Below, one piece after another: positions 1,952 through 54,038 of a stretch of DNA of 64,000 bases. Every line of letters starts with the position of its first letter. Positions within the stretch are counted from its first letter, which is position 1. Below the pieces are notes generated by a model. That model was given only the letters and a program-made list of their open reading frames with translations. It ran no database searches and was not told the origin of the DNA. Source of the DNA: Sialis fuliginosa (taxonomy: Eukaryota > Arthropoda > Insecta > Megaloptera > Sialidae); contig OY540809.1 of the NCBI GenBank assembly GCA_961205875.1, positions 11,792,267 to 11,856,266 of the forward strand. Direction: 5' to 3'. A program made the translations under genes and the position numbers.

Positions 1952-3329
1952 AGAATTAATATGTTTTTAAATATGCTAATATTTCTAGCCTTTAATACAG
2001 ACCTGTTCACTTTGAGATCTAACTAAAATTTTTGAAGTCATATTGATCTCATACCTATGGGAGGCGTGGAAGCTCTTAAAATATCAAAAAGAATGTCACA
2101 TTGCAAACTGAAATCTTTGACACCTCATAAGAATATTTCCGAATAGGCGAGTCAGTTAAAATTAAGCAGTTTTTTTATCAAAATTTGTAATTTAAATTTA
2201 AAGATGAAATTAACAATTTACTTCGATGTTTATAGTTTTAGTAAAATAATCAGAAAAAAATTTAATAAGAATACCGGTTTTTTTTATTGAATAATAACAA
2301 ATAAAAAATTATTCATTTGTTAATATATTTATCTTAGTATATCTATATTGATTTTAAAATTATTAAAAATTCTATTATCCTGACTTCTCTTCCGTTATTA
2401 TGTAAGCTAATATTATTTAAAATTTCATGGTTACGTGCAAGAGAACAAGTAAATATTGTATTTATTTCTAGGAAACGACGTTCATATATAAATTATAAAA
2501 TTTCCATTATGTTCATTCGTTTTTCTTTTTTCTTTTTCACATTTGATGGAAAAACCGTAGTATATTTTATGCCTCACAATCGAAACGTATGTTTATCATT
2601 GGCCCATATAAATCGACGTAGAAACACGTAACTCAATATGTTAATAATAACCCTCACAAGGAGGGGGGGGGGGGGGGGGGAGTTGACAGAGCTCTAGCCT
2701 AGTGATCTGCAGTTAAGGAGGTTGTTATAGTAATTATGAGTCAAGTGTAGGTATATATTAGAAAATTAATATAAGCATGAAAAAGTTTTTATTTGATGTA
2801 TACATACAAAATTTAATAGTACATTGAGATCATATTAGACATTTTTTGTCTGTTTATAATACGTTTGATTATTAAAAAAAAGTTAATAAATGATGCTCTC
2901 AATCGCTGATTTGACTCTAGTACCAAAATGGTACCAACCTAAATTTAATTTACTATTTATTCTTTTCAACTCCTAACACAGCTTAACTCTACCACACAGA
3001 TAGTGTAAGTTTACACGTACATACACATACAAGCAAATATCGAACAACGTTTCCAAACTTATAACTCTTATTCGATTTTAGTAATAATCATTTGTGATTC
3101 TGTTGCCAAAAATTAATTATTACAAACAAACGATGCGGTACAACTTTCTAGATATGACGACAATTGTTTTTCGAGCTATATAAACTATTTTCCGAAAATT
3201 AAACTTGGTTATAAAAGTATATTTTTTCTATATAAAGCATCAACGCGCTGTGCTTCGTTTCCCTATACTGGCCATATTAAAAAGACAATATTCAAAATTT
3301 TATATTTTCATAACGACGTAGTAAAAATA
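1952..3329. other. Unassigned A+T-rich DNA
   Basis: No gene or bounded element is seen. It contains an 18-G homopolymer at 2663-2680 within otherwise very A+T-rich sequence. Confidence 0.55.
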
Positions 3330-3550
3330 AAAAAATAAAACATCTGCCAAGTAAATGTACAGTGCTTCCTCGTGCTAAATTCACTAAAACCGATAGTGTT
3401 CAGATAAATTGCCTGGCATTGGTTAACCATTTAATTTTTATACAAATTTTACTAAAAAATCTTAGTTCGAAATTTTTCTTAAAACGCACCTGAATATTTT
3501 TTCATATATTTTTAATTTTTTGATAATTTCAATCTAAATCTAAATTTATG

Positions 3551-3630
3551 CAAATGTCAAAATGACATTTAAAACGTCAAAGTGACATTTAAAACGCCAA
3601 AATGACATTTAAAATGTCAAAGTGACATTT
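3551..3630. repeat. Short tandem array, 4 x 20 bp, each unit partly palindromic
   Basis: Four consecutive 20-bp units share the pattern aaaNGtCAAARTGACATTT. Each contains the near-palindrome AAATGTCA/TGACATTT. The units differ from each other at one to four bases. The array is A+T-rich and sits inside family Z. Confidence 0.85.
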
Positions 3631-3971
3631 CATATATCCAATCAAATATCAATTTAGAAAAACAAAACACGAATTTTTAAAATAAATTGAGATATATCTT
3701 TGTAAGGGAATATTTTACAACAAACGTAGTAGACCCATATTATAGGAAATTTGATGCTCTACAAAAAATATTCTATAAAATTTTCTCGTAACATGTGTCG
3801 TTCTTGAGATATCTTGAAAAAAATATATTTTGGGGTGTCACCCCTCCCCCTTACACACGATTTTGATGATTTTGAAATGGGACCGTCCTCAAACCAAACC
3901 CAACCATTTGACCAAATTTCAATAATATCGGTTCAGTGGTTCATGAGTTATGCGTGTGACAAGGATTCAGG

Positions 3972-5054: not shown

Positions 5055-5660
5055 CAGCGGTCACCAAACTATGGCCCGCGGGCCGAATCCAGTTTTTCAT
5101 CTGGCCCCTGATTTTTATATATAAATATAATATAATAAATATATAAATATTTTTTAATAAAAACAAACTTGTTTGTTTAAACGTCAAAATTTATTTAAGA
5201 AAAGGTAATCGCAAGCTTTCGATTCACAGAATCATCGTCACATGAATATTATTGAGATAACGACATCGTTCTCAAATTTAAATCTTTATTAATAGCCTGA
5301 CGATGATTCTGTGAATCGAAAGCTTGCGATTACCTTTTCTTAAATAAATTTTGACGTTTAAACAAACAAGTTTGTTTTTATTTATATTTAACGTCACTAC
5401 TATTATATAAAATATTTTTTATACATTTAAGAAATATTAATTTTATATAATTTAAAGATTTGATAAGGTAAATATGTGTATTTATCTACATTTGAACAAA
5501 TATTTACTATTATAAACTATATATACTCTATTTACATATAGCTAATTGCACGTGTAAATAAATGTTCTAATAGGATTCCAACAAGAATATTTTTCGTCCG
5601 GCCCCCCATGTTTAGAAAAAATCAATCCGGCACGTTTCTCGAAAAGTTTGGTGACCCCTG
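5055..5660. mobile_element. hAT-like element (606 bp) with exact 8-bp TSD and a nested insertion
   Basis: The left end reads CAGCGGTCACCAAACT followed by ATGGCCCGCGGGCC. The right end reads AAGTTTGGTGACCCCTG. CTGTAGGG flanks both sides (5047-5054 and 5661-5668), an exact 8-bp target duplication. The CAGNGGTCACCAAACT end and the 'tGGCCCGCGGGCC' block next to it are typical of hAT MITEs in animals (family knowledge). No transposase frame is present. A perfect palindromic insertion occupies 5158-5380, so this element is older than that insertion. Confidence 0.9.
5158..5380. mobile_element. Perfect palindromic insertion, 83-bp arms, with hammerhead-like boxes
   Basis: Arms at 5158-5240 and 5298-5380 are exact reverse complements over 83 bp, with a 57-bp spacer. 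The right arm contains CTGACGA, a short GATTC/GAATC stem, then GAAA (5297-5321). That order matches boxes C3-A9 and G12-A14 of the hammerhead ribozyme, as known in terminal repeats of Penelope-like elements. Stem III and the cleavage triplet are not convincing by eye. The same box sequence occurs at 20095-20127 and a diverged form at 20302-20325. Identical arms imply a recent insertion or gene conversion. It lies inside the hAT-like element 5055-5660. Confidence 0.6.
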
Positions 5661-5668
5661 CTGTAGGG

Positions 5669-7924
5669 TGAAACTACACATTACGCCCCAGTTTTAAGGA
5701 ATATTAAATAAAAAATAAAATATCAGATATGACAAAAATTATTTTAATAAATCATCATAGCTGTCTTTTGTTTATACAATGGTAAATTAAAATCATAAAC
5801 ATGAAAAATCTGGCTGGTTAAAAAAAAGTAATTATATAAAATTATTAAAATCGTTAAAATTCATAAGTCCGTGTAACACTTGGAAAATTCAGCTAGTAAA
5901 TAATAAGTAAACAAGAAAGAGTATTTTTGTAATAACCAAAACAATGTTTATTTTCACTTCACTAACAGAAAGTGAAAATAAAAAGAAGACTTCATCTAGT
6001 ACGTAGTTATGTGCATTGGACAATAAAGAGTCGTTATTACTTCTGGAGATCTATAATTAAATTTCCCGCCCTAGCGGGGTAGCCACTTCACCGTCTCCGG
6101 AATATCGTGTGGAGTATTATTGAAGTATAAATAACAAAAACCACTTGCTGAACGGCTTCGTTTCAAAATAAAACAATGCCTTCAATGGGCTCGTATTTAT
6201 TTTTCATTTATGTCGGCATGATTAGAAAAATAATTTAATTTAATTAATAACAAACATGTTTATTTGATTTACCTACTTAAGTAAGATATACAAACTCTAT
6301 ATAGATCATTGTTCACCAAAGTTAAAATCCCCATGTACCCTTTTTCGCAAATTTAAAAATGTTTTTCCTGTAAAGAAAATCAAATAGGGTCATTTTGCCG
6401 GTTTTCGGCTAATTAGTAGAGTTGTCAACTTTGGGTAACAAAAAAATATGTTTTTGTAATAATTTTGAACAAAAAATTATTATAATATACTTTTAAGAAC
6501 TCTATTTTAATTCGATCTAACAGTTTTGGTAGTCAATTTACTGATTTTTTTTATTTGATAAAAAGCTGATAATGCTGATTTCGCCAATTTTCGATCAGAA
6601 AATCCAGCTTTCGTGTGTGTATCTATTGCCATTTTTCCTTATTTTCTAAGAATGATATGTCAAATGGTCGAAAACAGGCACTGGTCGGAAAACAGACGAA
6701 ATTATCCTGCGCTTAACAAAATTAAAAAAAAGAGGAAAACAATCTCAACTATGCAGAATTTAGTTTAAATAAAATTTACTTGCTTTCAGTAAATATGATT
6801 AAAATAATTTGAGTTATTTGTATCCATTTTTTCAGTGTAGTATCTCCCTTTGAAAAAAATTTGCACAAGAAAGCACTGATTTCTTGTACATACCTTCTTT
6901 CAATATTTTAAAAATATTTATGATTCAAGATTTATTGTAAAAAATAGATGAATAAAGTTATGCAATATTTCAAATATTGTTATTGTCTTCAATTTTTTAT
7001 TTCTCTAACAGCTTACAGAACGTTAAGAATAAAGAATGTTTTACAGGTTTAAGCAGAAAGATATAAATTTTCATAGCAGTTTTATAGTGAAATGGAAAAC
7101 AAGAGATACACCATATTTTATGTTTACTATAAAAAGGCGTAACTGAAATAGTTAAATAAATAACATTTGGTTCTTTGAACGAAACGCAATACCTAAAACA
7201 TTTATTTGCATTAGATATTTATTTATTCGTGTTTAAATTTTCTCTTTTAATTACTTTTTCAAAGTAAATTAATTAATTTAAAACTTTCTTAATTAACTAT
7301 ACCGATATAATTTAAGAAAAAAATTATTTTATTATTATTTATGTATACAACCTCAAATAAATATTACCTCGTAAAGTATTATTCACAAACGAATCATTAA
7401 GAAATATAAATAACCAAGTTAACTTATCAAAAACTGAACTGATGTAATAACATTTTTTTTATATAGGTAGGTATACCTATGTTTTCCATTATTTTTCGAT
7501 TTTAATGCAAAAGTTTTGAATCTGGTTAATTTTTTTAATATCTCAGCTTGTATATGCCGGATCAAGTCATTTTTTAAATTATTCGTTATGAATACTTCTA
7601 TAAAACTGAGTAGGTTAAAATGGTTTATATTTAATTCTCAAACTAAAAAAAATAACCGCCGACATTAGTATTTTTTTGTTTTTGTTTTTTCTGAAAAAGT
7701 TTGGTTTACATGCGTATTATTTAATAAACATTTAGGAAAATATAATAATGTACAAATTATTTTATTTATAATATATTTTGAATTACAATAGCAGATGTGT
7801 AACAGACTATCAAAATTTGATGTGTAAAAATATAATTTTACACTGTGTTAATTTTATAAAAAAATTTCCAACACAGCTAACTATTATCTATTTACATATA
7901 CATATAATTGTCAGCTGTGATACG
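5669..7924. other. Unassigned A+T-rich DNA
   Basis: No gene or bounded repeat is recognised. A small G+C-rich hairpin, CCCGCCCTAGCGGGG, lies near 6066-6080. The 94-codon frame at 7778-8062 has no start context or family resemblance and runs into a dispersed repeat. Confidence 0.5.
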
Positions 7925-8092
7925 CGATCACTACATAACCCCTTTGGTGTGACATTTATACCCGCGACCTGTTTTATCGAGTATCATAACAGAAATCTGT
8001 ATTACCTAACCTTCTTCTTATTCTTCAAGGGTTTTATGTCTGACAGCTCCTACCTAACCTAATTTCCACGCGAACAATGTCGCGGGTAACAG
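7925..8092 (-). repeat. Dispersed repeat fragment with 'CGCGGGTAACAGCTAG' end
   Basis: It ends with CCACGCGAACAATGTCGCGG, a diverged form of CCACGCGGACGAAGTCGCGG, which also occurs at 25580-25601 and, reversed, at 31237-31258. Such blocks terminate many insect interspersed repeats. No ends or target duplication can be defined. Confidence 0.6.
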
Positions 8093-8192
8093 CTAGAATT
8101 AAATATATTTTGAAAAAGTTGGTTTCTTTTTAGGTAAACAAAAAAAGAAATAAGGAATTCTTTTGCAAGTGATGTGCCAGCAGTTCTCTGAA

Positions 8193-8370
8193 TTGATATT
8201 CGGCTCATCCCGCAGTCATATAAATGAGTATAAAAGAGTGCAAGTTTTTCGTTGCTCTGTTGGCAAGGGATTTACACCAGACTGAATGGCGGAGACGCAG
8301 GGAAGAGGGTTGAGTTTGTCACGGCTTCCATGAAACGTGCTTCACTCATTAAACAGTTGCCAACGGTGTT
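8193..8370. other. Slightly G+C-richer unique island
   Basis: This patch is less A+T-rich than its surroundings and carries a TATAAATGAGTATAAAAG stretch near 8219. The first ATG after it opens only 15 codons. It could be a weak promoter-like site, a short exon or an old repeat; nothing decides between these. Confidence 0.2.
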
Positions 8371-8754
8371 TTTTTTTACAAATACGTGTTGAATTTGAAA
8401 TAATTTTCATTTTTTTTAGTTTTATGATAAATCTTATCTAATATTTTTTTAAATAAACGAAAGTAAAAGTTTCATTGAGATATATTATTTATTCGCAATT
8501 TGTTCTGATGTAAAAAAGATTTCCAAAAATTTTTGTCAGTTTTGTAATTTTGATACATTGCTAGAAAATTTTTTATATTTTACAATATTGTGAAATCGTC
8601 TGTCTGTCTGTCCGTCCGCTTGTTTGTCTTTTATTATATATTTAGCTGATGTTTGGCATAATTATAGAAAATGGTGGGCCAATATTTGACCTGATTGTGA
8701 GTAATAAAAAAATTGTTTTGTCGATTTTTAAGAGGTTCAAATGGATTACTAATA

Positions 8755-9301
8755 AGTGTGTACCGGAACTGGAATTTTCAAATCCGGCCGGAACCGCAAA
8801 TACCTGAATTCACAAACAAAATCCAGCCGGAACCGGATTTTTTTTTCCAAAAAAATTATAAACAAATTAAAACTGATAAATTAACAAATAAATTGAATAA
8901 TAAATATCTCTGCTTGGCGTGATCTTACAGACTCAAACTTTTTTTAAATATAGCTCTCACCATTAACTATACGAGTATGTGACCCCTTTCATCTATAAAC
9001 AAATTAAATTTGGTAAATTAAAAAATAAGTTAAATAATTAATTAATGTTATAATTAGAACCATACTATTGCAAAAAACTACATTTGTGTTATGAAATGAT
9101 TATTTCCATTAAAATTTTTGTTAATAAAATGTTTTTATATCATAATTATTATATTTATATTTCCTTTTTTAAACAAAAATAACGTATATTATTCATGAAA
9201 TTCTAAGTAAAGTAATAATAAAATTTCAAAATTCCGGCAAAATCAGGCTGGAATTTACCAGTCCGACCGGAACCGGAATAAAATCATGAATTCCGGTACA
9301 C
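8755..9301. mobile_element. hAT-like element with CCGGAACCGGA subterminal repeats
   Basis: The left end is AGTGTGTACCGGAA and the right end TTCCGGTACAC. Flanks TACTAATA (8747-8754) and TACTAATT (9302-9309) agree at seven of eight bases. GCCGGAACCG and CCGACCGGAACCGG motifs recur just inside both ends, like the subterminal repeats bound by hAT transposases (inference). It interrupts a host repeat whose left part (CTGTCTGTCTGTCCGTCCG, 8600) and right part (GGGTGTCAAATGAAACG, 9343) now lie on opposite sides. A 69-codon frame at 8713-8922 runs across the left end and is not a gene. Confidence 0.7.
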
Positions 9302-9375: not shown

Positions 9376-11230
9376 TTTAAATATGTTAACAATAATACAT
9401 AGTACGTTTGGAGCTATTTATTTTCAAATAGACGAAATATTTAATACAAATAATGGTTCTTAACTTTACTAAAATTTAACTTGACAATTTTTTTGTTTGT
9501 TTGATATACATAGGTATTTTAACCATTATATTCAGAAGAGCAAACATGTTTTACTAATTTCGTATTGTTTTATTAGTTTTTGTTATGAAATCAATAAAAA
9601 TAATGCTTCTTCATCTGTGTTAATGTTTCATTAAATTAAAGGAAAAACGTATATATATTATCATTTGTACAAATTACATTATTAATAACATCATGAATTC
9701 GGGAATTGATTAGTGAATTGCGTGTCAATTTTGGGATGTGGTTATAATGCATGTGAGAGAAATTAACAGAATTATGTATTTCTCATGTTTTCTATCGGCG
9801 AGATGAAGTACATAATGATTTATCAATTTGTGAAACCACTTTGTAATCCGAAAAATGTATTAGATAAAAAAAACAAAAAGCAGCCAGTTGGGTATATTGC
9901 AAATAACGATTTCAATATACTAGATTAAAAATCTCAAATCTGTTATAAAGAAAAAGTATCATAATTAGACAAAACTATACCTATTACATATAAAAAATCA
10001 TTTTTAGCTTAAAATATTTTAGTATAAAACTCGCTGATAGTTAGTTTTCTGCATTTTTAATAACTTTTATATTTAGTATAATTTTTTTGGTATTTTAATC
10101 ACTAAACTGCAAACTTAAATTTTAAATTTTGGCCGATATCTGCCACTAGTGTTACGTCGTTTAAACAACGCCGTCATAATCATTCATTTATTGTTATTTT
10201 TGTTATTATTTTTAATTGATCTAGTATTATTATTGTATATTATTAGTTCATTTATTCATAGTTTGTTATGTTGTTTATTCTATACGATAGCATACAGATT
10301 GGTTTCATGTTACATTCATTGTTTTCTAAGAATTCACATGTTAAAATTTCGCTTTAAGCACATAATATATTGTATCTATTCGTTCTAAAATTGACATGTT
10401 AAAATTTCAAGTGCATAAAACCTTTCTAGGGTGTTTTACAACTTTAAATAAGATTTATTATTTTTTGTTGGTCATAGATACATCCAAAGGAATTTCAAGT
10501 TAATGTTAAACATATGTGTACACAGGATTTTTCCATGAACCTACAAACTCATCCCTTCCCTATAAGCGAACACTGTCCACTACCATTTTTCTTGTTACCA
10601 ATCAAATTATCCAAATTTAAACTCCGCCCTTTATCTTTATTACTTAAAATTTTAAGGATTTTATTTTTAAGAAATGTAAAATTAGTGCTTGTTAAGTTTC
10701 CATACTAACAACATTCACACATATACATTAAACATACCTTTTATATGTTATACATTTATGTATTATACATCAATAAATTATACATAAATTGTGACATTTA
10801 AATTGAAATTTTAAATAAACCAAATCATTAAAAAAAGTCTAAACGATATTAAGTTGGAGTTTAGCAAGAGTTAGTAACACACATACAGTTCCTAACTCCA
10901 AATACGCCAAAACAACTAGCAATAACTTTATTTGTACAATTATAGATCAAAACCATTTTTCACATTCAGTTATCATGAAGTAAAGCATAATCAATCATCA
11001 CAGAATTCATTTAGAGATAGCATATACAATAAATTCCACTAGCATGTCAAACCTAACCGCCATTCCTGTCGAAACAATGTGGTATTCCTATACCTTCTTC
11101 GTGTCACATTCTGTGATAGACAAACATCACAAAGCTTGCACAACGATTATCTAGAATGTGAAATATTATTTGGTACATGGATGGTAATGCATTTTGTAAC
11201 TATTTATTGCATTTCATGGACTACACAAAG
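9376..11230. other. Unassigned A+T-rich DNA
   Basis: No gene, bounded repeat or RNA gene is seen. Frames at 10149-10388 and 10514-10708 are compositionally A+T-driven (Leu/Ile/Phe-rich) and have no family resemblance. Confidence 0.5.
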
Positions 11231-11346
11231 GACAATTAATACCGCTTTATTATATGATGTGTTAAAATTGGAAATATATGTATTGTTCATATACCTTATA
11301 TACAATATACAATTAATATATGTATACATAGTAGTACATACATACA
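11231..11346 (+). repeat. Left member of a 116-bp direct duplication
   Basis: It starts GACAATTAATACCGC and closely matches 11943-12060 (start to end, with a handful of differences). The two copies are direct and bracket the CAGGGTG-module block at 11343-11942. Confidence 0.85.
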
Positions 11347-11942
11347 GGGTGTCCCAACACTGTGTCAAATTTCATTTATTATAACAAATGAAAGAAAACT
11401 TTAAATACTAAAGTTGTCCGGATAGACAAGCAGCAAATTTTGAAAACAGTTATATTTATACAGGTTGTGCCATAAGTGCGTTACAAATCAAAGTTATATT
11501 TTTTTTAAATACAAAGTATATTTTTTTAATTAATAATCTAAAAGCATTTTTCTGGACATTTTGCGGTTTAGAAATTATGACCATTTTTGTAAAAAAAACT
11601 GGAGTATTTTAAACACCTTGTAATTTTCTAATTACAACAAAATATTTTGTTCTCTGCTAAAATTAATTTTAGTATATGCTCTATTATTGCGATATTACAT
11701 CAAACATTTACAAAATTGTATTCTTTGTACAGGGTATATCAAAACTCTGAACCCAATTTTTTCAAAATTTTAAAACGGAACAGCCTATATATTTTTACAT
11801 TTTCAAATTTTCTATTTAATTCTAAACACATTTAATAAACTATGTTCCATTCCTAAATCCAGCCTTTAAAGAGTTATTTGAAGATTTTTAAATGTTTTAT
11901 AAAAACAATTTGCTAGAATTTACAAATTTTAAACAGACAAAT
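11343..11942 (+). mobile_element. Composite block of TACAGGGT-type modules between direct repeats
   Basis: Module starts are TACAGGGTGTCCCAA at 11344, TACAGGTTGTGCCA at 11459 and TACAGGGTATATCAAAA at 11729. The third is followed by a GGAACAGCCTATATATTTTT segment that resembles 16444-16470 in the large foldback element. TACAGGGTG-type ends are common in arthropod DNA transposon relics. No transposase frame is present. Confidence 0.55.
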
Positions 11943-12060
11943 GACAATTAATACCGCTTTATTTTATGATGTGTTAAAATTGGAAATATATGTATTGTTC
12001 ATATACCTTATACACAATATACAATTAACATAGTATGTACTACATAGTAGTACGTACATA
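11943..12060 (+). repeat. Right member of a 116-bp direct duplication
   Basis: Copy of 11231-11346 in the same orientation; differences include TTATATGATG versus TTTTATGATG and an ATAC/ACAC change. It closes the bracket around the module block. Confidence 0.85.
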
Positions 12061-15954: not shown

Positions 15955-15956
15955 TA

Positions 15957-17469
15957 TACAGGGTGGGGCAATAGTGTGTGGAAGTTCGATAGCTCGTAGA
16001 CCATAAACGATACAAAAATCTTTCTAATGCAGATGTAAACTATGAGTTAATGCACATACATAGAAATTATTTTCAAATATACAGGGTGCTACAAAAAAGT
16101 GTGGCATGCTTAAGGTAATTTTTTTTAAATGGAATGCCCCGAATATTTTTGCATATTTAACACTTCTCTTGGGATGTTTAATTATATAGAAAATATTAGC
16201 CACATCTGATGTTCGGTTTAACCGTAATAGTATTTTTTTCAAAAAAATTGATGTTTACATTACTCCACTTAAAAATTCACCACTTCCGCGTCTGCATCTT
16301 TGAAGACGAAATTAAATATGGACCTTATTGTAGGAGGCTGGTGGGTGCTTTTGTTAAATTAACTTAGAGCCACCATGTACAGGGTGTTCAAAATTAATTT
16401 TCAAATTTTGAGAACATCGAAGTTATTTTTCTCAACTATTTCAAATGGAACACCCTATATATTTTTTAACGATGTTATGTAGAATTACATCGAACATTTT
16501 TTGTTGTACATCCTTATGGTTATTTGTAACCATTTTTGATTTATTGAGCAAAAAGTACAAAAATCAACAATATTTACTAAAAAAATGATTTTTTTTTGAA
16601 TTAAATAAAACACCATGTACAGGATGTTCATGTTGCCCATTAAAACAGCATGAATTTTTTTCAGTTAGCAAACAGATGCTTTATTATTTTATCAAACACA
16701 AATAACCAAAATAATTTACAACCATATAAATTCACTAATACGCAGTGTGAAATCGCGACAGAAACATAAAATGCTGTTTTTATGGGCAACATGAACACTC
16801 TGTACATGTTGTTTTATTTTATTTGAAAAAAAATCATTTTTTTAAGTAAATATTGTTGAATTTTGTTCTTTTTGCTCAATAAATCAAAAATGGTAACAAA
16901 TAACCATAAAGATGTACAAACAAAATATGTTCGTTATGTAATTTTACATAACATCGTTAAAAAATATATAGGGTGTTCCATTTGAAATAGTTGAGAAAAA
17001 TAACTTTGAAGTTCTCAAAATTTGAAAATTAATTTTGAACACCCTGTACATGGTGGCTCTAAGATATTTTAACAAAAGCACCCACCAACCTCCTACAATA
17101 AGGTCCATATTTAATTTCGTCTTCAAAGATGCTGACGCGGAAGTGGTGAATTTTTTAGTGGACTAATGTAAACATCAATTTTTTTGAAAAAAATACTATT
17201 ACGTCTAAACCGGACATCAGATGGGGCTAATATTTTCGATATGAATAAACATCCCAAGAGAAGTGTTAAATATGTAAAAATATTAGGGGCATTCCATTTA
17301 AAAAAAATTACCTTAAGCATGCCACACTTTTTTGTAGCACCCTGTATATTTGAAAATAATTTCTATGTATGTGCATTTACTCATAATTTACATCTGCATT
17401 AGAAAGATTTTTTTATCTTTTATGGTCTACGAGCTATCGAACTTCCACACACTATTGCCCCACCCTGTA
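15957..17469. mobile_element. 1.5 kb foldback (near-complete palindrome) element, TA-flanked
   Basis: The left end TACAGGGTGGGGCAATAG and the right end CTATTGCCCCACCCTGTA are inverted, flanked by TA on both sides. The arms run 15957-16651 and 16771-17469 with only a 119-bp spacer, so almost the whole element is one inverted repeat. Matching 72-codon frames occur in mirror image (16024-16242 minus, 17184-17402 plus), as expected of copied arms. Inside each arm, further TACAGGGTG-type ends appear in series (16079, 16377, 16616 in the left arm). TA flanks suggest a Tc1/mariner-type mobiliser (inference). There is no transposase. Confidence 0.88.
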
Positions 17470-17471
17470 TA

Positions 17472-19677: not shown

Positions 19678-20945
19678 ACTTTCTTATACCCATGTATATG
19701 AAATATACCTACAATAATATAATATAGCGACGATAAATATATTAAATAATAACAAATTAATTGTCTAAACGTCAAGTATTTTTTTAAAGTTAAAATATTT
19801 TTTATCTTCCAAACTATTAATTTAAAAAAAAAGTTTATGAGACAAAAAATGTTCACTTTTATCCAATGAAGCTTACATAATATTTTCAGATTTTTTAATG
19901 CAGATTTAGATTTGTTAAACATACAAACGTGTGTACCTATTAAAGGATCGCATAAAAAAATATTATATATATAGATGTTTTTTCTCAGAAAAATATAAAG
20001 AATTTAATAAAATCATTTTTAGCCACTAGAACGTCAATTGGTCGGTTAGTATCATTTCTAAGCGAGCTAGACTGGATAATCCGCTCGCCTATATTCGCAA
20101 GCTTTCGATTCACAGAATCATCGTCAGGCTTTCAAACGGAAATAAAAGACAGATGTTGTAATCTCAAATATATCCATGTAGCTACGGGAATGTTTATTGA
20201 TTTATATGATAAAAATTTCTTATTTTAAAACATACAGACAAAAAACATTACATGAATATATTTGAGATTACAACAGCTGTCTTATATTTCCTTCTGAAAG
20301 TCTGACGTTGATTTTGTGAATCAAACGTTTGGGAATACTTGTTCTTTAATAAATTTGTCGTTTAGGCAATTAATTTGTTATTATTAAATATACCTAGATA
20401 ATATAGTATAAGTAAGTATAGTGAAGCCGATTTTGACCTTCCCTGAATCTATTCTGATTATTTTCGCCATGATGTCCGTCTGTCGGTCTGTAAGCGCTGT
20501 AACTCAAATACAACAAATCGTAGAAGGGTGAAATTTTATATATAAGATTAATTTTTGTCTGAGAAGAAAATATCCTATTTTTGAAAACGATCTTTCAACT
20601 GGATACGGATGTTTACTAACGTCGATTTTTGAATTTTTCGAATTACTTTGAAACAGTGCGAATTAGAGAAAAATGGTCAAGTTAAAAATTGCAGGTAATA
20701 TTATTATCTATTGTATAATTTATGTTCTATTCATTTTTTCGAAAAACAAAAAAAAATTTATTATAATTTAAATGGTTCATAATAGAAGAGAAATCTATAG
20801 TTTATGTTCCATTCATTGTATTCTATCTTTTATCAGTTTGTCAGAAATATGTTTAAAAAAAAGAATCACGTACACTGTTCACTATCAGGAATATTAAGTA
20901 TAAGAAAGTCCCGTGGCTCCCATGGCAGATATTTTGAACTAGTAA
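19678..20945 (+). repeat. Dispersed repeat family R, copy split by an insertion
   Basis: ACTTTCTTATACC (19678) and GTATAGTGAAGCCGATTTTG (20416) are contiguous in the other copy at 24041-24140 but separated here by 19728-20397. Further shared blocks are TTTTCGCCATGATGT, GATCTTTCAACTGGATACG and TAGTTTGTCAGAAATATG-like text. No termini or protein are recognised. Confidence 0.75.
19728..20397. mobile_element. 670-bp palindromic insertion with 9-bp TSD and hammerhead-like box (Penelope-like relic?)
   Basis: ATAATATAG at 19719-19727 is repeated at 20398-20406, an exact 9-bp target duplication. The outer ends are inverted (ATTAAATAATAACAAATTAA on the left, the mirror near 20370). Inner arms 20094-20180 and 20248-20336 are inverted too. 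The left inner arm, read in reverse, holds CTGACGA-GATTC..GAATC-GAAA, identical to the box in 5158-5380; the right arm has a diverged copy. Related family R at 24041 serves as an empty site. A duplication length that is neither 2, 3 nor 8 bp suggests retrotransposition. No reverse transcriptase frame remains. Confidence 0.65.
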
Positions 20946-26827: not shown

Positions 26828-29451
26828 TGTACAGTCACCTGCATTAATGGTCTTGCATTTTGTATTCATTTTCGTTTATCACAAACTTAGTTGGCTCCTC
26901 CCATTTGATTATTATAATATTTAAATCATTTCTCCATGTATCAAACAAAGACAGATATTTTGAAATTCATTTGCTAGATAAAGAACTACTCTTTGTTTAT
27001 AGTACTCATATATATTTGTGCAATTAAATTATTATGTAATCTATTGAAAATTGTATAAGTAAATTTTGTGGCAATAAATATTTGATATTCCAAATTTTAG
27101 TATTTAAATATATTAACTTGATATAAAATTATATGTAGCATTAATATGGATAAGGTGAAGATTAAAACGTTTTGAAGGGGGGTAGGAGTATGTAAGCCCC
27201 TCCCCCCACTGAAAGGCGAAGGATATTCGTTTAATGTTATGTTCCCCTTAAAAAAACTTATAAATTTAAAGTAATTTAAATAAAGGGGGTGGGATCATAG
27301 GGGTCATACCCCATAAGAAACAACATATGTAAAACTATAACAAATCAAATAAAAATTTCTTAATTTAATATACTACAATTCTTTTGCTTCGAACTTCAAA
27401 ACTTGTTTTGCCTACCTCCCTCTCAAATTTGAAGTTAGTATTGTTAAACCAATTTTTTCAATTTCGGATTTTGATGGCAATATCCATTTTAACCTTCTCT
27501 GAACCCATTCTGATTATTTTCTGTAGTCGTTAACAAACGACAAAGAAGTCTAGTGATAGCCATTGCACCTTTTTAAATGTAATTTAAAAATTTGAAAATT
27601 TTAAACTAGTCATTATAATGCCAATTGACTATAAAAAAGGAATTTGAAATTTTTATATTTTGTTAAATATGTATACCTACGAGTGGGTTAAAATTAACGC
27701 ATGTGTTATTGCAAAGGTAGTGATTTTATTGCTTATATTTATATTACAAGAAACGCAAATTATTATTGCAAATAAACTGCCCTGGTCGACACAAGACTTT
27801 TTTATACATCATGATACAGATGAAAATTACATTAGTTAATACTTTCTGCTAAGAAATTGAATATAAACTACATTACTTTAATTGTTGTTTTTGTTAATGT
27901 TCGAGATATATTTTAATTCTATTATGTGATTTTATTTCAAATGTTTTTATTTTTTTATTATAAATCGGTATAATAATTTTTATGCTTAAAAAAATGTTGT
28001 TTTGTCAATGGCTTCTTATTTATTTAATATTTCAACAGTTTGGCACGTTTTAGATATTATTATTTCTATACATCTATTTAATTGACAGTTATAATAATAA
28101 ATGATTTTATTTTCATAGATAACTATATCCATATAGATTTCATATTATTAAAATTAATTTTAAATAAAACTAAATTATTATTTTTGGTCAATTCATAAAA
28201 GATACAAAAAAAGAATAGAACATAAATTATAGAAAATAATGTTCTCTACAAATTTTATAGTCCAGGCTGTGGAGGCTAAAACAGATTGTTTTTGGGTACA
28301 GTTTTAATACTAACAGCATTTGTTACAAGTGTAGAATAATACCCTAAGTTTGATCCGATTTTGGTTGTCCGCGACAGGAGTTATCCATGGTTCATTTGCA
28401 AAATTCTTAAGATTTTCTGATTTTTGGTAAATAGCGGTCTAAATAACTATTATACAAAAAAAATTTCATGTAAAATTTTGAAATTTAAAAAAAAAATCAT
28501 TTGTTTATCCGTTACGCTGATAAAAATGGTTGTAATAACTAATAAAGTTTAACGTTTTTTAAGTTGATATCCCTGGAAAATAAACATTTTGTAGTACAGA
28601 ACATTAACTGAAAATTAGGACCTGATATCTTCAATTGTTTTTGTGTAGTTAAATTATTAAAAATAGAATCATGCTTGTTTATGATTCACAATACAATTTT
28701 TTGCAAAACCTTTATTTTTGTAAAACTGTTTGTATGTGTTTCCAAAGACTTATATAATCGATTGTCACCATAAAAAAGTAAAATTTATCAATATGGCAAA
28801 TAGTGGCATTGAAATCTTATTGTTGATTTTTTTTTATTATAAACAAATACAGTTGTTTTATAGAACCAGCAACAATAAAAAAATAATAGCCAAAAACCTG
28901 CTCCGAACAATTATTTATCTATTGGTGAAAGCCGCATTAAAATCGGTTCAGTAGTTTTAGAGTTATTTTATTGTATATTACACACTACACAATTTTTATA
29001 AAAATTGATTGTTTATACAATTAATTAATTAACTCTACCTACATAAAAAAGGTTATTTTTGTATCTTTTACCGCTTATCTCGAAAAATATGATGTGTAAA
29101 ACGTAAAATATAATAGCAAAAAATAATATATTAATATTTAATTGTTAAAATGTATAAAATAATCTTCAAATCCAATATAAATTGTAGATACATACATATT
29201 AGATTTAAAATATACATAAGTAAATAACTATAATAAATATAAGAAATTAGGTAACAAAAGCAAAATTTGTAATAATAAATCATTATTTGAAATGGAAGTA
29301 TATTTATTGTTTTTATTTAAAATGTTATAACTGTAAGTGTAAGCTCCGCCCTAGAAAAAGATAACCGATGATGTTTGTCTTTAAATTTGAAATCTTTTGT
29401 AAGCGATTATGGCCTTTAGGGTGCCAGACGAGATCTGCAGGTGACTGTACA
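26828..29451. mobile_element. Family X, long (2.6 kb) element with 15-bp exact terminal inverted repeats
   Basis: The left end TGTACAGTCACCTGC and right end GCAGGTGACTGTACA are exact 15-bp reverse complements. Internal left (GCTCCTCCCATTTGATTATT, 26896) and right (AAAGATAACCGATGATGTTT, 29357) blocks match the short copies at 52737-53033, 35276-35601 and 60687-61150, giving a consistent element. The interior carries an R fragment (27425-27560) and other A+T-rich sequence but no transposase frame. The right end lies 76 bp before the MORN gene. No clear target duplication is seen, so an alternative is two independent X insertions. Confidence 0.6.
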
Positions 29452-29527: not shown

Positions 29528-30121
29528 ATGGTAAAGCCGCCAAAAAAGAATGAAAAAGAAAAGAAAGACAAAAAGGATAAAAAAGAAAAAAAGCCAGTGA
29601 GTCTGAAAGATGATCCCAACATTCCCAACATGAAAGACGGTTATGATGAGTTCAAGTTTAAAGGTGGTGACATGTACACAGGTAACTACATCGCCTACAA
29701 AGACGGCAACATATTTCGTCAAGGCTATGGGCAGTACACAACCCGCGACGGAGAATGTTATTCCGGTCAATGGGATGCAGACGGTTTAGTAAACGATTCA
29801 GAGATGCTCATCACATATTCAGATAGCACATCTTACGAAGGGAATCTTGTTAATTATGAGTACAATGGAAATGCAAAATTCACTCTGAAAAATGTCTACA
29901 ACGTTCAGGCTAATTTTGTTAATAATAAACCTGAAGTTTCAGGAGAGGTGATATTGACTGATCGAAATGATCATAGATGGGTAGGTCTTGCTAATGCAAA
30001 TGATGTACATTTGTTTCCTGTTAATCAGTTTTATGAAAATATACCAGAAGAACTTGGAACAGAACATTTTAAATATTCTGAGAGGTTTTCAAATGTATCT
30101 GAAAATGATGTTGATGTATAA
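29528..30121 (+). CDS. MORN-repeat protein, MORN2-like (197 aa), single exon
   Basis: A complete frame with a good start (AAAATGG) and an in-frame TAA nine bases upstream. Residues 1-27 are almost all Lys/Glu/Asp, a flexible basic leader. MORN-type units follow: Y50-TGNY to about Y70, Y78-SGQW to Y97, Y103-EGNL to F118, then a degenerate unit around 124-143 and W151. MORN units are short beta-hairpin repeats that mediate membrane or protein contacts. The spacing and the end of the repeat block resemble MORN2, a small protein tied in animals to cilia/sperm function and to phagocytosis (family knowledge; the role here is inferred). Base composition is clearly less A+T-rich than the flanks, and three AATAAA signals follow. 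The whole gene lacks introns, so a functional retrocopy is possible, but no poly(A) tract or target duplication is seen. A minus-strand 89-codon frame inside it is a shadow. Confidence 0.9.
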   Translation: MVKPPKKNEKEKKDKKDKKEKKPVSLKDDPNIPNMKDGYDEFKFKGGDMYTGNYIAYKDGNIFRQGYGQYTTRDGECYSGQWDADGLVNDSEMLITYSDSTSYEGNLVNYEYNGNAKFTLKNVYNVQANFVNNKPEVSGEVILTDRNDHRWVGLANANDVHLFPVNQFYENIPEELGTEHFKYSERFSNVSENDVDV

Positions 30122-30816: not shown

Positions 30817-31150
30817 ATGTCCGGTATCATAAAGGACCTAACAAATTTGTTAGCTAACAAGCACTTTCAACTGAGATATCAAACTTATATGGCAGTTCTT
30901 TTGGAGTTTGTTGATGACTTTGACAAGTTTCGCGCACGCGTTGTAGGTAAATACAAACGGTATTAAAACAGTGGTGATGTTATGAAAATTATTTTGTACG
31001 GTCAAATATGCCAACTGTGTTACAATTAGTTGAAGTGTCACTGCTCTAAATTCCATAACTAATCGATAAATACTAGTACAGAATTAATACCCCATTTGAA
31101 TGTAATTGCTAGCTAGCAAATTTTGTTAGGTCCTTTATAATACCGGACAT
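30817..31150. mobile_element. TGTCCGGTAT-family element (short form) carrying a small ORF
   Basis: The ends ATGTCCGGTATCATAAAGG and CCTTTATAATACCGGACAT are inverted with one mismatch, and similarity continues as GACCTAACAAA. TAA occurs at both element borders (30815-30817, 31150-31152), fitting a 3-bp TWA target as in PIF/Harbinger-type elements (tentative). A 68-codon minus-strand frame (30850-31056) begins MEFRAV and matches the frame at 48254-48484. Longer relatives are at 34342-34916 and 47938-48493. Confidence 0.75.
30850..31056 (-). CDS. Small conserved frame of the TGTCCGGTAT element (68 aa), function unknown
   Basis: The frame reads MEFRAVTLQLIVTQLAYLTV and onward, Leu/Ile/Val/Thr-rich. 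The copy at 48254 (76 codons) begins MEFRAVIFQLIVTQLATLTV and stays alignable to about residue 66. I recognise no domain. It may be a vestige of an element protein or merely two copies of non-coding sequence that happen to stay open. In the third copy (minus strand, about 34397-34540) a 27-nt in-frame deletion is followed by an extra base that shifts the frame. Confidence 0.2.
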   Translation of the reverse strand: MEFRAVTLQLIVTQLAYLTVQNNFHNITTVLIPFVFTYNACAKLVKVINKLQKNCHISLISQLKVLVS

Positions 31151-34240: not shown

Positions 34241-34341
34241 AATTTCACTTACAACTAGGTACGTTTTTAAATAAAATTTTACTTATTCAATTACGATACA
34301 CGTATTAGATATACATGAAGTTTTTAAAAATATATAATAAT

Positions 34342-34916
34342 TTCCGATATTATATAAGAGCTCGCAAATTTGCTATCTTGCAAGCACTCTCAAATGAGGT
34401 ATCAAACTTATATGACAGTTCTCTTGGAGTTTGTGTCGCGCACGCGGTGTAGGAAAAACACCAACGGTATTAAAACAGTGGTCAAAGACGCCAACTGTGT
34501 TACAATTAGTTGAAGTATCACTGCTCTAAATTCCATAGCTAATCCATAGATACTAGTACAGAATTAATACCCCATTTGAGAGTGCTTGCTCCTTTATAAT
34601 ACCGGACATTAAACAAGTATCTTTTAATAATAGCCACACTCTAAAGCAGTGTTGCCAAACTCATACATGAACATAAGACATCTAATTCAGTCTAAGATAG
34701 TTGGAAGGCCGCTCCCCTCCCCTTTTTAAAATATTTTTTTCGGCAAGTAAAAAAAATAAAAATTTTAACGAAAAGAAAGTTTTTTATGTACAGGGTGTCC
34801 CACGGAATGGTGTTGAAACTGCCATTTTCAAATAGATGCAGTTATTGAAAAAACAAAAATTGCTTTGAAAAGGGGAGAGTCTGTAATTTTTGCTAGCTCC
34901 TTTATAATAATGGACT
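34342..34916. mobile_element. TGTCCGGTAT-family composite with a third, internal terminal repeat
   Basis: A degenerate left end (TTCCGATATTATATAAGAG, 34342) is followed by body A, then a full end CCTTTATAATACCGGACA at 34591-34608, then body B (34613-34900), then another end, CTCCTTTATAATAATGGACT. Body B contains TACAGGGTGTCCCACGG and GGATGCAGTTATTG-like text. In the relative 47938-48493, A and B are joined by GCAATTTTAACAACAATTTA-type sequence without an internal end. Confidence 0.65.
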
Positions 34917-47638: not shown

Positions 47639-47937
47639 ATTGAAAAAAAAAAATATCGTAGAAAAGAAGATAGTTAGTTTTTAATGTGTATAAATAAAAT
47701 TTTGTAAAATATTTGTGCATCAATTTATTTTATTGATAAAAAATATGCTAAAATAATCGATAATTCTGTTAAAAATAACACAAAAATTTATTTCAATGCA
47801 AATGTATTGCACAAAAATGAAGTGACGTAACGTATAAGTTTAAATAAAGAACGGCCATACACTTTTTCTCTCGAAAAAAAGCACTCCGATTATTATTATG
47901 ACGCGCACGTTCTACTGTAGCCCGAATAGAATTGAAG

Positions 47938-48493
47938 GCTCTCCCCTTTTCAAAGCAATATTTGTTTTTTCAATAATTGCGTCCTTTGAAAATGGCCACC
48001 CTTTACATTAAAAACCTTTTTTACGTTAAAATTTTCTTTTTTTTACTTGCCACAAAAAAATATTCTAAAAAGAGGAGGGGAGCGGCTTTCCGACTATCTT
48101 AAACTGAATTAGATGTATTTTGTTCATGTATGAGTTTGGCAACACTGCTTTAGAGTGTAGCTATTATAAAAAGATACTTATTTAAATTGTTGTTAAAATT
48201 GCAAGTACTCTCAAATGGGGTATTAATTCTGTACCAGTATCTATGGATTAGCTATGGAATTTAGAGCAGTGATATTTCAACTAATTGTAACACAGTTGGC
48301 GACTTTGACCGTACAAAATAATTTTCATAATATCACCACTGTTTTAATACCATTGGTGTTTACATACCACGCATACGCGAAAATTGTCAAAAATTACATG
48401 AAACTTAAAGAAAACTGTCAGATATGTTTGAAACCTAATTTGGAAGTGCTTGCAAGCCAGCAAATTTTGGTAGCTCGTTTATAATACCGGACA
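47938..48493 (-). mobile_element. TGTCCGGTAT-family long form (~556 bp)
   Basis: In reverse, it starts TGTCCGGTATTATAAACGAG, continues through body A, and joins body B directly, ending near TTTGAAAAGGGGAGAGCC. The outer terminal repeat after body B is not present. The plus-strand frame 48254-48484 (76 codons) matches the minus-strand frame at 30850-31056. Confidence 0.7.
48254..48484 (+). CDS. Small conserved frame of the TGTCCGGTAT element (76 aa), function unknown
   Basis: The frame begins MEFRAVIFQLIVTQLATLTV, hydrophobic and Thr-rich in the first half, Lys/Asn-rich after residue 43. It is the relative of the frame at 30850-31056. The differences between the two copies include many amino-acid changes in the second half, so strong protein-level selection is not evident. 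No domain is recognised. Confidence 0.2.
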   Translation: MEFRAVIFQLIVTQLATLTVQNNFHNITTVLIPLVFTYHAYAKIVKNYMKLKENCQICLKPNLEVLASQQILVARL

Positions 48494-50498
48494 TAAGTAT
48501 TTGAAGACCATATGTATAATAGTTTTCGCCTAACAATAAATACATACTAATTAATAAGTTTCAATACTAATTGTACTCGTTACTAATTATCTTTGATGAC
48601 AAAGGACAAAGATAAATCTTTATTTTATATTTGTAAAAATACACAAAAATATGCTATTCCAACATATAACATAAAATTTAAATAATTTCTAAAGCTGTCA
48701 CCTAAATCACTATAAAACATGTGCAGTTTCGTTACAAAAGTAGGTCTGCTGTTGTTTATTGGGTATATTAGTATATTTAGGTCACAAATGAAAACGTAAA
48801 ATTTTTATCTGATATAATAAATATCTGTGCTTTTTTGTTTTATTCCGTTTGCATACAATTAGCCGAAATCAAGCGTGTATGAACAACGTTTTTAAGTGGT
48901 GACCATATATAAAGAAAATAAAAATGACTACAGACTACATAAAATATAATTAAAGGTCGAATTTCTTCATTATGGTTAGAAAATTTCACATCGATACGGT
49001 ATAATTTTTTATCATCAGACAAGTAAAGATATAGGACTCATAACACATTACCTAGCGTAGTTACCATAACGCTCCACAAAAAAACGCTCCACGAGTCATT
49101 TGCGTATCTTTCGGATTTGAAAATAAATATCAATTGTTTTGAATTATAAAATTAATTAATAATAAATGTTTTATATTGTCTTTAAAAGTATTTAAGTAAT
49201 AATTGATTAACAGAGAAACGTCTATTTGGATTTATCATCTCTTTTACATACAAAATTCAATTGTAATTTAAAGCATATTTGTACATTATAAATTTTCAAC
49301 TAACTCCTTCATAGAAATGACGAAAATGACATTTTTAAGTTATGGTAACAGTTTCATGTACGGACTAGCATTGGTTGTTATGTATCCATAACCTTTCCTA
49401 ATCTAAACTTATAACACATCTAGTGTCTTTTTTGGGGCATCATCTGTCTTTGTCCTTATAAAAATTTAACCTTTTCCAGATATTATACAAAAACATTATT
49501 TCTTTGAAAAAAATTAGTACGAAAATGATCGAGAGTAAATTTTTTTTATTAAATAATTGGAGGGGGGGGGGGGGGTAATCTACAATAACAACTTTTTATA
49601 CAAATACCAGTCTACAGTTAACTTTACAAAAATGTCTACTCTTCAAATTTCAAGCTGTTGTCAAATACGTAATGTAGTCAATATTGATTTAAGTTGAATT
49701 TAGGCAATTTGTTAGAATGCTAGTGACAAGAAGTTTGCATCATAGCTTGTATAGTTATAAAAGAAAATGTAAGTATTATAAATATTATGATGTTGTTGAT
49801 AGATATAATTCATTTTTAGATGTAAGATCTAAATAAACATGTTTTAGATCAAAGAAAAGCGGAAATGTAGATGACATGAACCATTTTAAAAATTTAACAA
49901 CTACCACAAATGTTTATTTCTTATAGATTCCATTAACAACTCTCTGTTATCGTGAATATTAATGTATCATCGTAAGAAATAATTTAACAATTGGTCAATT
50001 TGTTTTTTTCTCAATTATTTTACATTAATTATTTTAGTCACAGATCACTAAACGGGAAGGTTCTTAATTCAACAATATATTGTAAATATATTTTTATGTA
50101 TGTTCTGATATAACTCTAACAAATATGCACCGATTTTGAAGTGTATTATTTTTTTATTTGAAAGAGTATACTCCCGAAGTGGTCCCATAAAATTTTATCA
50201 GAATCTTACCATTTACTTCAAGAGTACGACAAAAGGAAAAATTAAAAAAACTTTTTAAAGAAAAAACAACGCCAAAAAAAAACTAAAAATACTTTAAAGT
50301 ATAAAATAATAAAATTAAACAGTTTTCAAAGTCGGTGCCAAGTCAATAAAAAACTTTTTAAGAAAGAAAAAGATAAAACCGATTTCAGAACTGTTAAATT
50401 TAATGATTAGGTACATACATTTCAGTATTTTTAGGTTTTTTTTAAGTTTTTTATCTAAACCATCATATAACGACGCAAGTGCATATTCTGACTCAGTA
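48494..50498. other. Unassigned A+T-rich DNA
   Basis: No gene is seen. A G run lies at 49562-49575. Frames at 48840-49022 and 50455-50658 are not gene-like. Confidence 0.4.
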
Positions 50499-50643: not shown

Positions 50644-50771
50644 GGTTGCATTTATCACAATTAGTCAATCAGTTGTTTTAAAACCATTATAAGTTTAGAA
50701 TTAATATTAAGCATGGTTTGAAAACAACTGATTAACTAATTGTGGTTAATTTTGCTTCATGTAGCCCGAGG
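50644..50771. mobile_element. Family Q palindromic element (128 bp)
   Basis: CAATCAGTTGTTTTAAAACC mirrors GGTTTGAAAACAACTGATTA, and the outer parts GGTTGCATTTATCACAATTA and TAATTGTGGTTAATTTTGC mirror each other less exactly. A longer copy is at 53802-54038. Confidence 0.7.
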
Positions 50772-53801: not shown

Positions 53802-54038
53802 CCTCGGTTTGCATAAAGCAAAATTAATCACGATTAGTTAATCAGTTGTTTTAAAACCATTATTACGTTAATTCTAAAAAACAATCACAGTTATTATAAA
53901 TTTTATAAGATAAAAAATGATCATATTTAGTGAATTGTTCATTTACAAATCGAAAATAAATTTAGAATTAACATTAATCATGGTTTGAAAACAACTGATT
54001 AACTAACCGTTGTTAATTTTGCTTTATGCAACCCAGGG
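53802..54038. mobile_element. Family Q element (237 bp), long terminal inverted repeats
   Basis: CCTCGGTTTGCATAAAGC on the left mirrors GCTTTATGCAACCCAGGG on the right, and the symmetry continues through AAAATTAATCACGATTAG and TTAATCAGTTGTTTTAAAAC for about 57 bp per side with scattered mismatches. Shorter copies are at 50644-50771 and 58021-58113. Confidence 0.78.

Follow-up and report, generated by a model that had tools for sequence, protein, structure and literature searches.

A dispersed family of gene-less palindromic elements with serial ends in Sialis fuliginosa, probably mobilised by a Tc1/mariner-type transposase

Among the closest described systems are Rpmar49 and Rpmar17 of Rhodnius prolixus, two non-autonomous mariner lineages with TIRs of 221 and 57 bp, whose length is ascribed in the published account to replacement of the 5′ part of the element by its 3′ part (PMC4678618). 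Rpmar49 amplified afterwards and is represented by 13 independent copies, complete mariner copies in that genome are bordered by TA, and a further repeat of the same insect, MITE_83.0, carries the label ‘Tc1-like ?’ (PMC4678618). Here we describe a palindromic element of Sialis fuliginosa that recalls these lineages and differs from them in its anatomy.

The element lies at 15957–17469 of a 64-kb stretch of DNA (the whole stretch analysed, 64,000 nucleotides, is referred to as the window). The initial annotation had described an inverted repeat with arms of about 695 bp around a 119-bp turn, and this structure is found exactly at that place: 661 of the 695 compared sites are identical between the arms, with 34 substitutions and 4 gapped columns in the alignment. 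Inverted identity extends 2 bp beyond each terminus (15955–17471), giving TATACAGGG..CCCTGTATA, and among the 16 inverted pairs detected in the window (BLAST, E up to 1e-4, <1.5 kb apart) this pair is the longest and the most alike. The parts of the element are as follows.

15957..17469, no strand assigned: whole palindromic element (TACAGGGTG...CACCCTGTA), 1513 bp
15955..15956, no strand assigned: TA beyond the left terminus, within TATACAGGG
17470..17471, no strand assigned: TA beyond the right terminus
15957..16651, plus strand: left arm, 695 nt
16652..16770, no strand assigned: spacer between the arms, 119 nt
16771..17469, minus strand: right arm, 699 nt
15957..16079, plus strand: layer A1, 123 nt, with outer end TACAGGGTGGGGC
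16080..16377, plus strand: layer A2, 298 nt, beginning TACAGGGTGCTAC; right end CACCATG, its TA common with A3
16378..16617, plus strand: layer A3, 240 nt, beginning TACAGGGTGTTC; motif AAATGGAACACCCTATATATTT at 16443
16618..16804, no strand assigned: innermost layer A4, 187 nt, with 34-nt inverted ends around the spacer
16805..17048, minus strand: mirror copy of A3
17049..17346, minus strand: mirror copy of A2
17347..17469, minus strand: mirror copy of A1

Ends in series within each arm, likewise part of the original description, are present as four TACAGGGTG-type ends per arm, at 15957, 16080, 16378 and 16618 on the left (the last reading TACAGGATG) and mirrored at 17469, 17346, 17048 and 16804 on the right (the last reading TACAGAGTG); the outermost pair reads TACAGGGTGGGGC..GCCCCACCCTGTA. 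Matches to TACAGGGTG with at most one mismatch number 27 in the 64 kb, compared with 5.5 expected from shuffles, and 13 of the 27 fall within the 1513 bases of the palindrome (binomial P ~1e-14). Since A2 and A3 both start with TACAGGGTG and finish with CACCATG-TA, back-to-back ends have one TA in common, and the halves of A2 and A3 bear end-like sequences on both sides. The alignment of A2 with A3 beats all of 500 shuffles; homology between modules is weak once the end 9-mer is removed (z 3.1 for A3–C3, at most 2.3 for the remaining pairs). The innermost layer, A4, may formerly have been a separate element.

The element is without recognisable coding sequence: there is no ORF of at least 150 aa inside the palindrome, and none of seven frames of 41–75 aa from the left arm and centre matched Pfam. 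Rfam at gathering thresholds returned no match across the whole window, and viral contigs and prokaryote genome contigs searched for the element's words gave 0 stretches each. The surrounding DNA is AT-rich and gene-poor, and the sole ORF of at least 150 aa in the window (29528–30121) has a weak MORN-repeat match (E 0.0006) under the curated cut-off.

In the source genome (392 Mb, 20 contigs) the element is one of a multi-copy family with constant termini at many sites. Searching with the left arm gave 791 first-look candidates, the best 40 of which were scored; among the 42 matches listed, window copy included, 40 have 95–100% identity and two 88 and 90%, and 41 cover all 695 nt. Together with the window, the 37 regions retrieved from these places contain 40 palindromes in which both arms and the spacer are present, and 38 of the 40 keep both outer ends at a length of 1492–1519 bp. 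Because the 40 are the best-scoring copies, the sample is skewed to intact ones. The 38 copies have 37 distinct flank pairs. Spacer identity is 97–100% in 20 of the 21 elements from the first 20 regions and 92.4% in a diverged copy (L015). In region L031 the right arm is interrupted, and the rest of that copy was found in L066. The outer 25-mer has 253 exact genome matches (124 + 129; reversed control 0), and the proposed look for other copies with the same ends was positive. Six extra places, picked for ends without the usual partner or at an odd distance, included a complete palindrome (L069), a copy with a left-arm deletion (L067) and three truncated or rearranged ones (L068, L070, L071). 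Two local arrangements are of separate interest: region L032 carries two identical palindromes (2339–3856 and 7290–8807) that lie 4951 bp apart and share their flanks, as though the locus had recently been duplicated in tandem, and L015:862–3903 carries two palindromes, one at 89% (diverged) and one at 96.6%, 6 bp apart across TATATA.

The TA noted at the outermost borders in the window is a general property, lying immediately outside both TACAGGG termini in 36 of the 38 copies. Empty sites, the other proposed check, were found as paralogous sites for three copies (L021, L023 and L027), all insertions within other repeats, and were compared with target models by eye. For L027, a relative at window position 27040 reads ..TCATATATATTTG.., as expected for TA duplicated inside TATATA; a relative in L020 has one extra TA, so the length of the run varies. 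The L023 relatives found in L020 and L027 depart from the TATATA form by a single base, and a third (window 27112) by one base more. At L021, three relatives read CTGCTTTACATTG, a better fit to a 4-bp TATA; AACATTG stands in a fourth relative, and in a fifth (L065) the stretch is missing. Attempts at L045, L011, L012 and L030 were unclean, the left side of L030 being unreadable. In a second family, described below, the second outward base is A in just 15 of 20 borders and hence not fixed, which favours TA. Judged from these comparisons, the target-site duplication would be TA or TATA; the Tc1-like Sleeping Beauty prefers AT repeats around a duplicated centre (PMC4877112). Further copies, the same ends and the empty sites together support a mobile element with TA borders.

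Palindromes are difficult to assemble, and there is no second copy within the window itself, as might be expected if the structure were a single inverted duplication or had been produced by misassembly at the 119-bp turn. Both are contradicted by the 40 palindromes complete in arms and spacer that are found on contigs C1 to C13, by the 34 sites at which the window arms differ and by 29 alignment columns at which the majority letters of left and right arms differ among 38 copies. We regard this explanation as excluded by the multiple copies with the same ends and the empty sites, its probability being practically nil.

The relationships among arms indicate when the palindrome arose. Mean distances between elements are 0.026 for left arms and 0.033 for right arms, and 0.042 between the two arms within an element. 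A tree of 76 arms requires 4 changes of the left/right label, compared with 25.5 when labels are shuffled, and 0 of 500 shuffles are as low. Left arms cluster together and right arms likewise, except in L015_862 and L035_823, which are the most diverged copies and in which the element's own two arms pair together. This grouping of left with left and right with right implies that the palindrome formed before the family spread and that it moves as a unit. The head-to-head duplication is consequently not local to this site, as the initial annotation could be taken to suggest, and predates the spread of the family. Nearest copies at different sites are only 0.07% and 0.13% apart, which points to recent spread; the nearest relative of the window copy is 2.5% distant.

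We consider it probable that these copies form a family of non-autonomous DNA transposons without genes, of the long-TIR or palindromic MITE type, in which a stacked chain of modules was duplicated in inverted orientation and then spread. In outline, small TACAGGGTG-ended modules would have been joined at shared TA dinucleotides into an ancestral chain, and the chain would then have been duplicated in inverted orientation to give the 1.5-kb palindrome. Stacking at TA is plausible for elements with a TA target. In relatives of the L045 host repeat, the insertion point coincides exactly with a TACAGGGTG or TATAGGGTG end, although the flank of L045 itself is altered there, and the two L015 palindromes stand only 6 bp apart. 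The inversion could have come about by fold-back copying, with the short inverted repeat of A4, the innermost, acting as primer; inverted duplication through fold-back priming at short inverted repeats has been described in yeast and in mammalian cells (PMC7999016). The order of stacking before duplication, and the fold-back step, are our reconstruction. The palindrome, owning proper outer ends, would then have transposed as one unit into TATA(TA) sites, using a Tc1/mariner-type transposase supplied from elsewhere in the genome.

If the finished chain was duplicated and inverted in one step, divergence should be equal across the layers. Arm-to-arm differences from A1 to A4 are 4/123, 15/298, 12/240 and 3/34 (permutation P 0.62), and the inner 161 arm sites carry 12 substitutions compared with 22 in the outer 534, a difference that is not significant (Fisher P 0.096). 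The layers could alternatively result from nested insertion, in which A2..A2′ entered the exact centre of a palindromic A1, A3..A3′ entered A2, and A4 entered A3. The presence of TA at every layer boundary, the other self-palindromic repeats of the window (5156–5382, 20092–20337 and 53806–54034) and the ends right at the insertion point in the L045 host-repeat relatives all agree with such a series. It requires, however, three spacer-less palindromes, each struck at its dyad, and no difference in divergence among layers is detectable. The pre-insertion A2–A2′ junction has 0 genome matches at up to 3 mismatches, where old precursors may have decayed further, and the end-like sequences that flank the A2 and A3 halves on both sides also speak against it. 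Nested insertion appears unlikely.

The window contains several other repeats. The palindromic repeats at 5156–5382, 20092–20337, 53806–54034 and 50650–50750 are smaller and more diverged, and their ends do not start with TACAGGGTG. A single TACAGGGTG end at 34789 lies in a dispersed repeat (34334–34888) that is related to 47930–48500 and 30817–31109. In the retrieved regions, other repeats with TACAGGGTG or TATAGGGTG ends and different bodies are found at L032:519, L044:312, L041:1019, L049:596, L037:620 and 1079, and L029:281; the bodies at L032:519 and L044:312 are alike.

A related module chain had been noted at 11343–11942, with ends at 11343, 11459 and 11728. The chain is real and, rather than being a loose relative, constitutes one arm belonging to a second family of palindromes, represented in the window by the following feature.

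11343..11936, plus strand: one arm and part of the centre of a palindrome of the second family, the second arm missing here

This half-palindrome lies between the two copies of a ~120-bp direct repeat (11225–11344 and 11937–12060; 92.7% identity), the left copy of which ends at the TA of the outer end. The genome search with the chain gave 1010 candidates, of which 40 were scored and 84 pieces listed; among the matches listed, at least 15 places occur as facing pairs. Eight loci were compared: arms are 93–99.7% alike over at least 580 nt in five, two have shorter pieces and the window's own has none. Five copies are intact, four at 1362–1363 bp and one (L078) at 1361 bp. The L078 arm aligns end for end with a family 1 arm (L010) at a score of 96, compared with a best score of 72 in 500 shuffles that keep two ends and the shared motif (0/500 as high). 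For the decayed chain of the window, the match to the arm beyond ends and motif is marginal (13/500 shuffles as high). The ends of family 1 are spaced at 0/123/421, and the outer and third ends of intact family 2 copies at 0 and ~425. The spacers of the two families (L078 and L010) show no similarity, scoring 34 compared with a shuffled mean of 33.

The module chain is therefore common to both families, and the palindrome was either made twice or is ancestral with arms kept alike. The proposal that small elements were stacked and then duplicated head to head has partial support: arm-to-arm divergence does not differ detectably among the layers, a family 2 copy compared with a family 1 copy has its ends in the same order although its spacer is unrelated, and the joined A2–A2′ junction to be expected under nested insertion was not found. 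A variant of the preferred explanation takes the palindrome as ancestral to both families, with arms homogenised by gene conversion instead of two inverted duplications. Between the families the arms remain colinear despite wide divergence, within one element they resemble each other, and the left–right distance is just 1.6% in some copies (L039, L044), as this variant would expect; the unrelated spacers do not fit it, and the 29 arm-specific columns and the separation of arms on the family 1 tree indicate that any conversion is not complete. We see ancestral origin as a reasonable possibility, although not as the favoured one.

A broader reading is that the two sister families, with the same end order, nearly the same spacing and widely diverged sequences, represent a transposon class in which each arm is a conserved series of end modules and the arms evolve in concert, with serial ends and palindromy aiding mobility. 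If so, the arms evolve by conversion or repeated re-duplication, and serial ends and palindromy could offer several transposase sites or a hairpin intermediate. The 76 arms of family 1 lend no support to constraint on the internal ends, whose conservation is unremarkable. The first and second ends rank within roughly the calmer third of 7-mers and the third end does not; the innermost (fourth) end is the weakest, reading TACAGG in 13 and TAAAGG in 22 left arms of the 38 copies, and no other 7-mer of the arm varies as much. The idea that every internal end serves the transposase is therefore unsupported within family 1. We hold the class-level reading to be rather doubtful.

If transcribed, the element would form a hairpin of ~690 bp, with a predicted RNA fold of -1043 kcal/mol in which 669 of 695 left-arm bases pair with their mirror position. 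The hairpin might thus be the function, the locus serving the host as a source of hairpin RNA from which endo-siRNAs against transposons with TACAGGGTG ends are made, and Drosophila hairpin-RNA loci that produce endo-siRNAs offer a precedent (PMC10292708, PMC10317233). Such folding follows from the palindrome itself, however, and a transposon better accounts for constant termini in a dispersed, multi-copy family. A host function of this kind would seem very unlikely.

The palindrome family is probably mobilised by a Tc1/mariner-type transposase, and its membership in the Tc1/mariner superfamily is likely; as far as its sequence allows one to say, the element would work like a Tc1/mariner MITE. 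The genome is rich in mariner transposase matches: PF01359 gave 495 candidates, of which 150 were scored, and several have open frames >200 aa. Exact TACAGGGTG ends bracketed a transposase in 0 of 20 loci drawn from the 150 scored hits.

A puzzling local structure can in this way be resolved into what are most probably two large families of palindromic transposons that share one build and are in part recent. If stacking followed by inversion is correct, they show separate small transposons fusing into a longer mobile unit. Dispersed long hairpins within one genome also provide material for measuring arm conversion, palindrome stability and small-RNA output.

Literature searches with the bare end motifs gave no relevant title; Repbase lies outside that search, and we do not claim the families as unpublished. 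Several described systems share single aspects of the element. The LTIR-like DD40/41D elements of aphids belong to the Tc1/mariner superfamily and have ~460-bp TIRs, but unlike the palindrome they exceed 2.3 kb and encode a transposase (PMC5490172), and ‘cagggt’ is absent from the main text of that paper. In Anopheles gambiae, 32 TIR or palindromic clusters of 430–1678 nt, six of them palindromic, have no identity to known TEs (PMC3212995); ‘cagggt’ is absent from the main text, and the passages on these clusters describe no serial-end anatomy. The Atlantic cod MITE gadMor-hAT-1784 has multiple tandem internal inverted repeats and a palindromic consensus, and is a hAT, thus of a superfamily other than Tc1/mariner (PMC12368964).

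The CAGGGTG ends are held in common with the Rhodnius elements Rpmar26, Rpmar65 and MITE_83.0 (CAGGGTGTGT..., CAGGGTGCGT... and TA-CAGGGTGACC..., respectively), which have a TA target; the match is short, covering only the first 7–8 bases of TIRs of 28–39 letters (PMC4678618). Rpmar49 and Rpmar17 resemble the Sialis element in their unusually long TIRs and their non-autonomous nature and, for Rpmar49, in its subsequent amplification (PMC4678618). They differ in that they measure 970 and 922 bp and Rpmar49 retains transposase homology (PMC4678618), whereas the Sialis arms reach 695 nt with no coding match, and unlike either of them the Sialis element carries several end-like modules in series.
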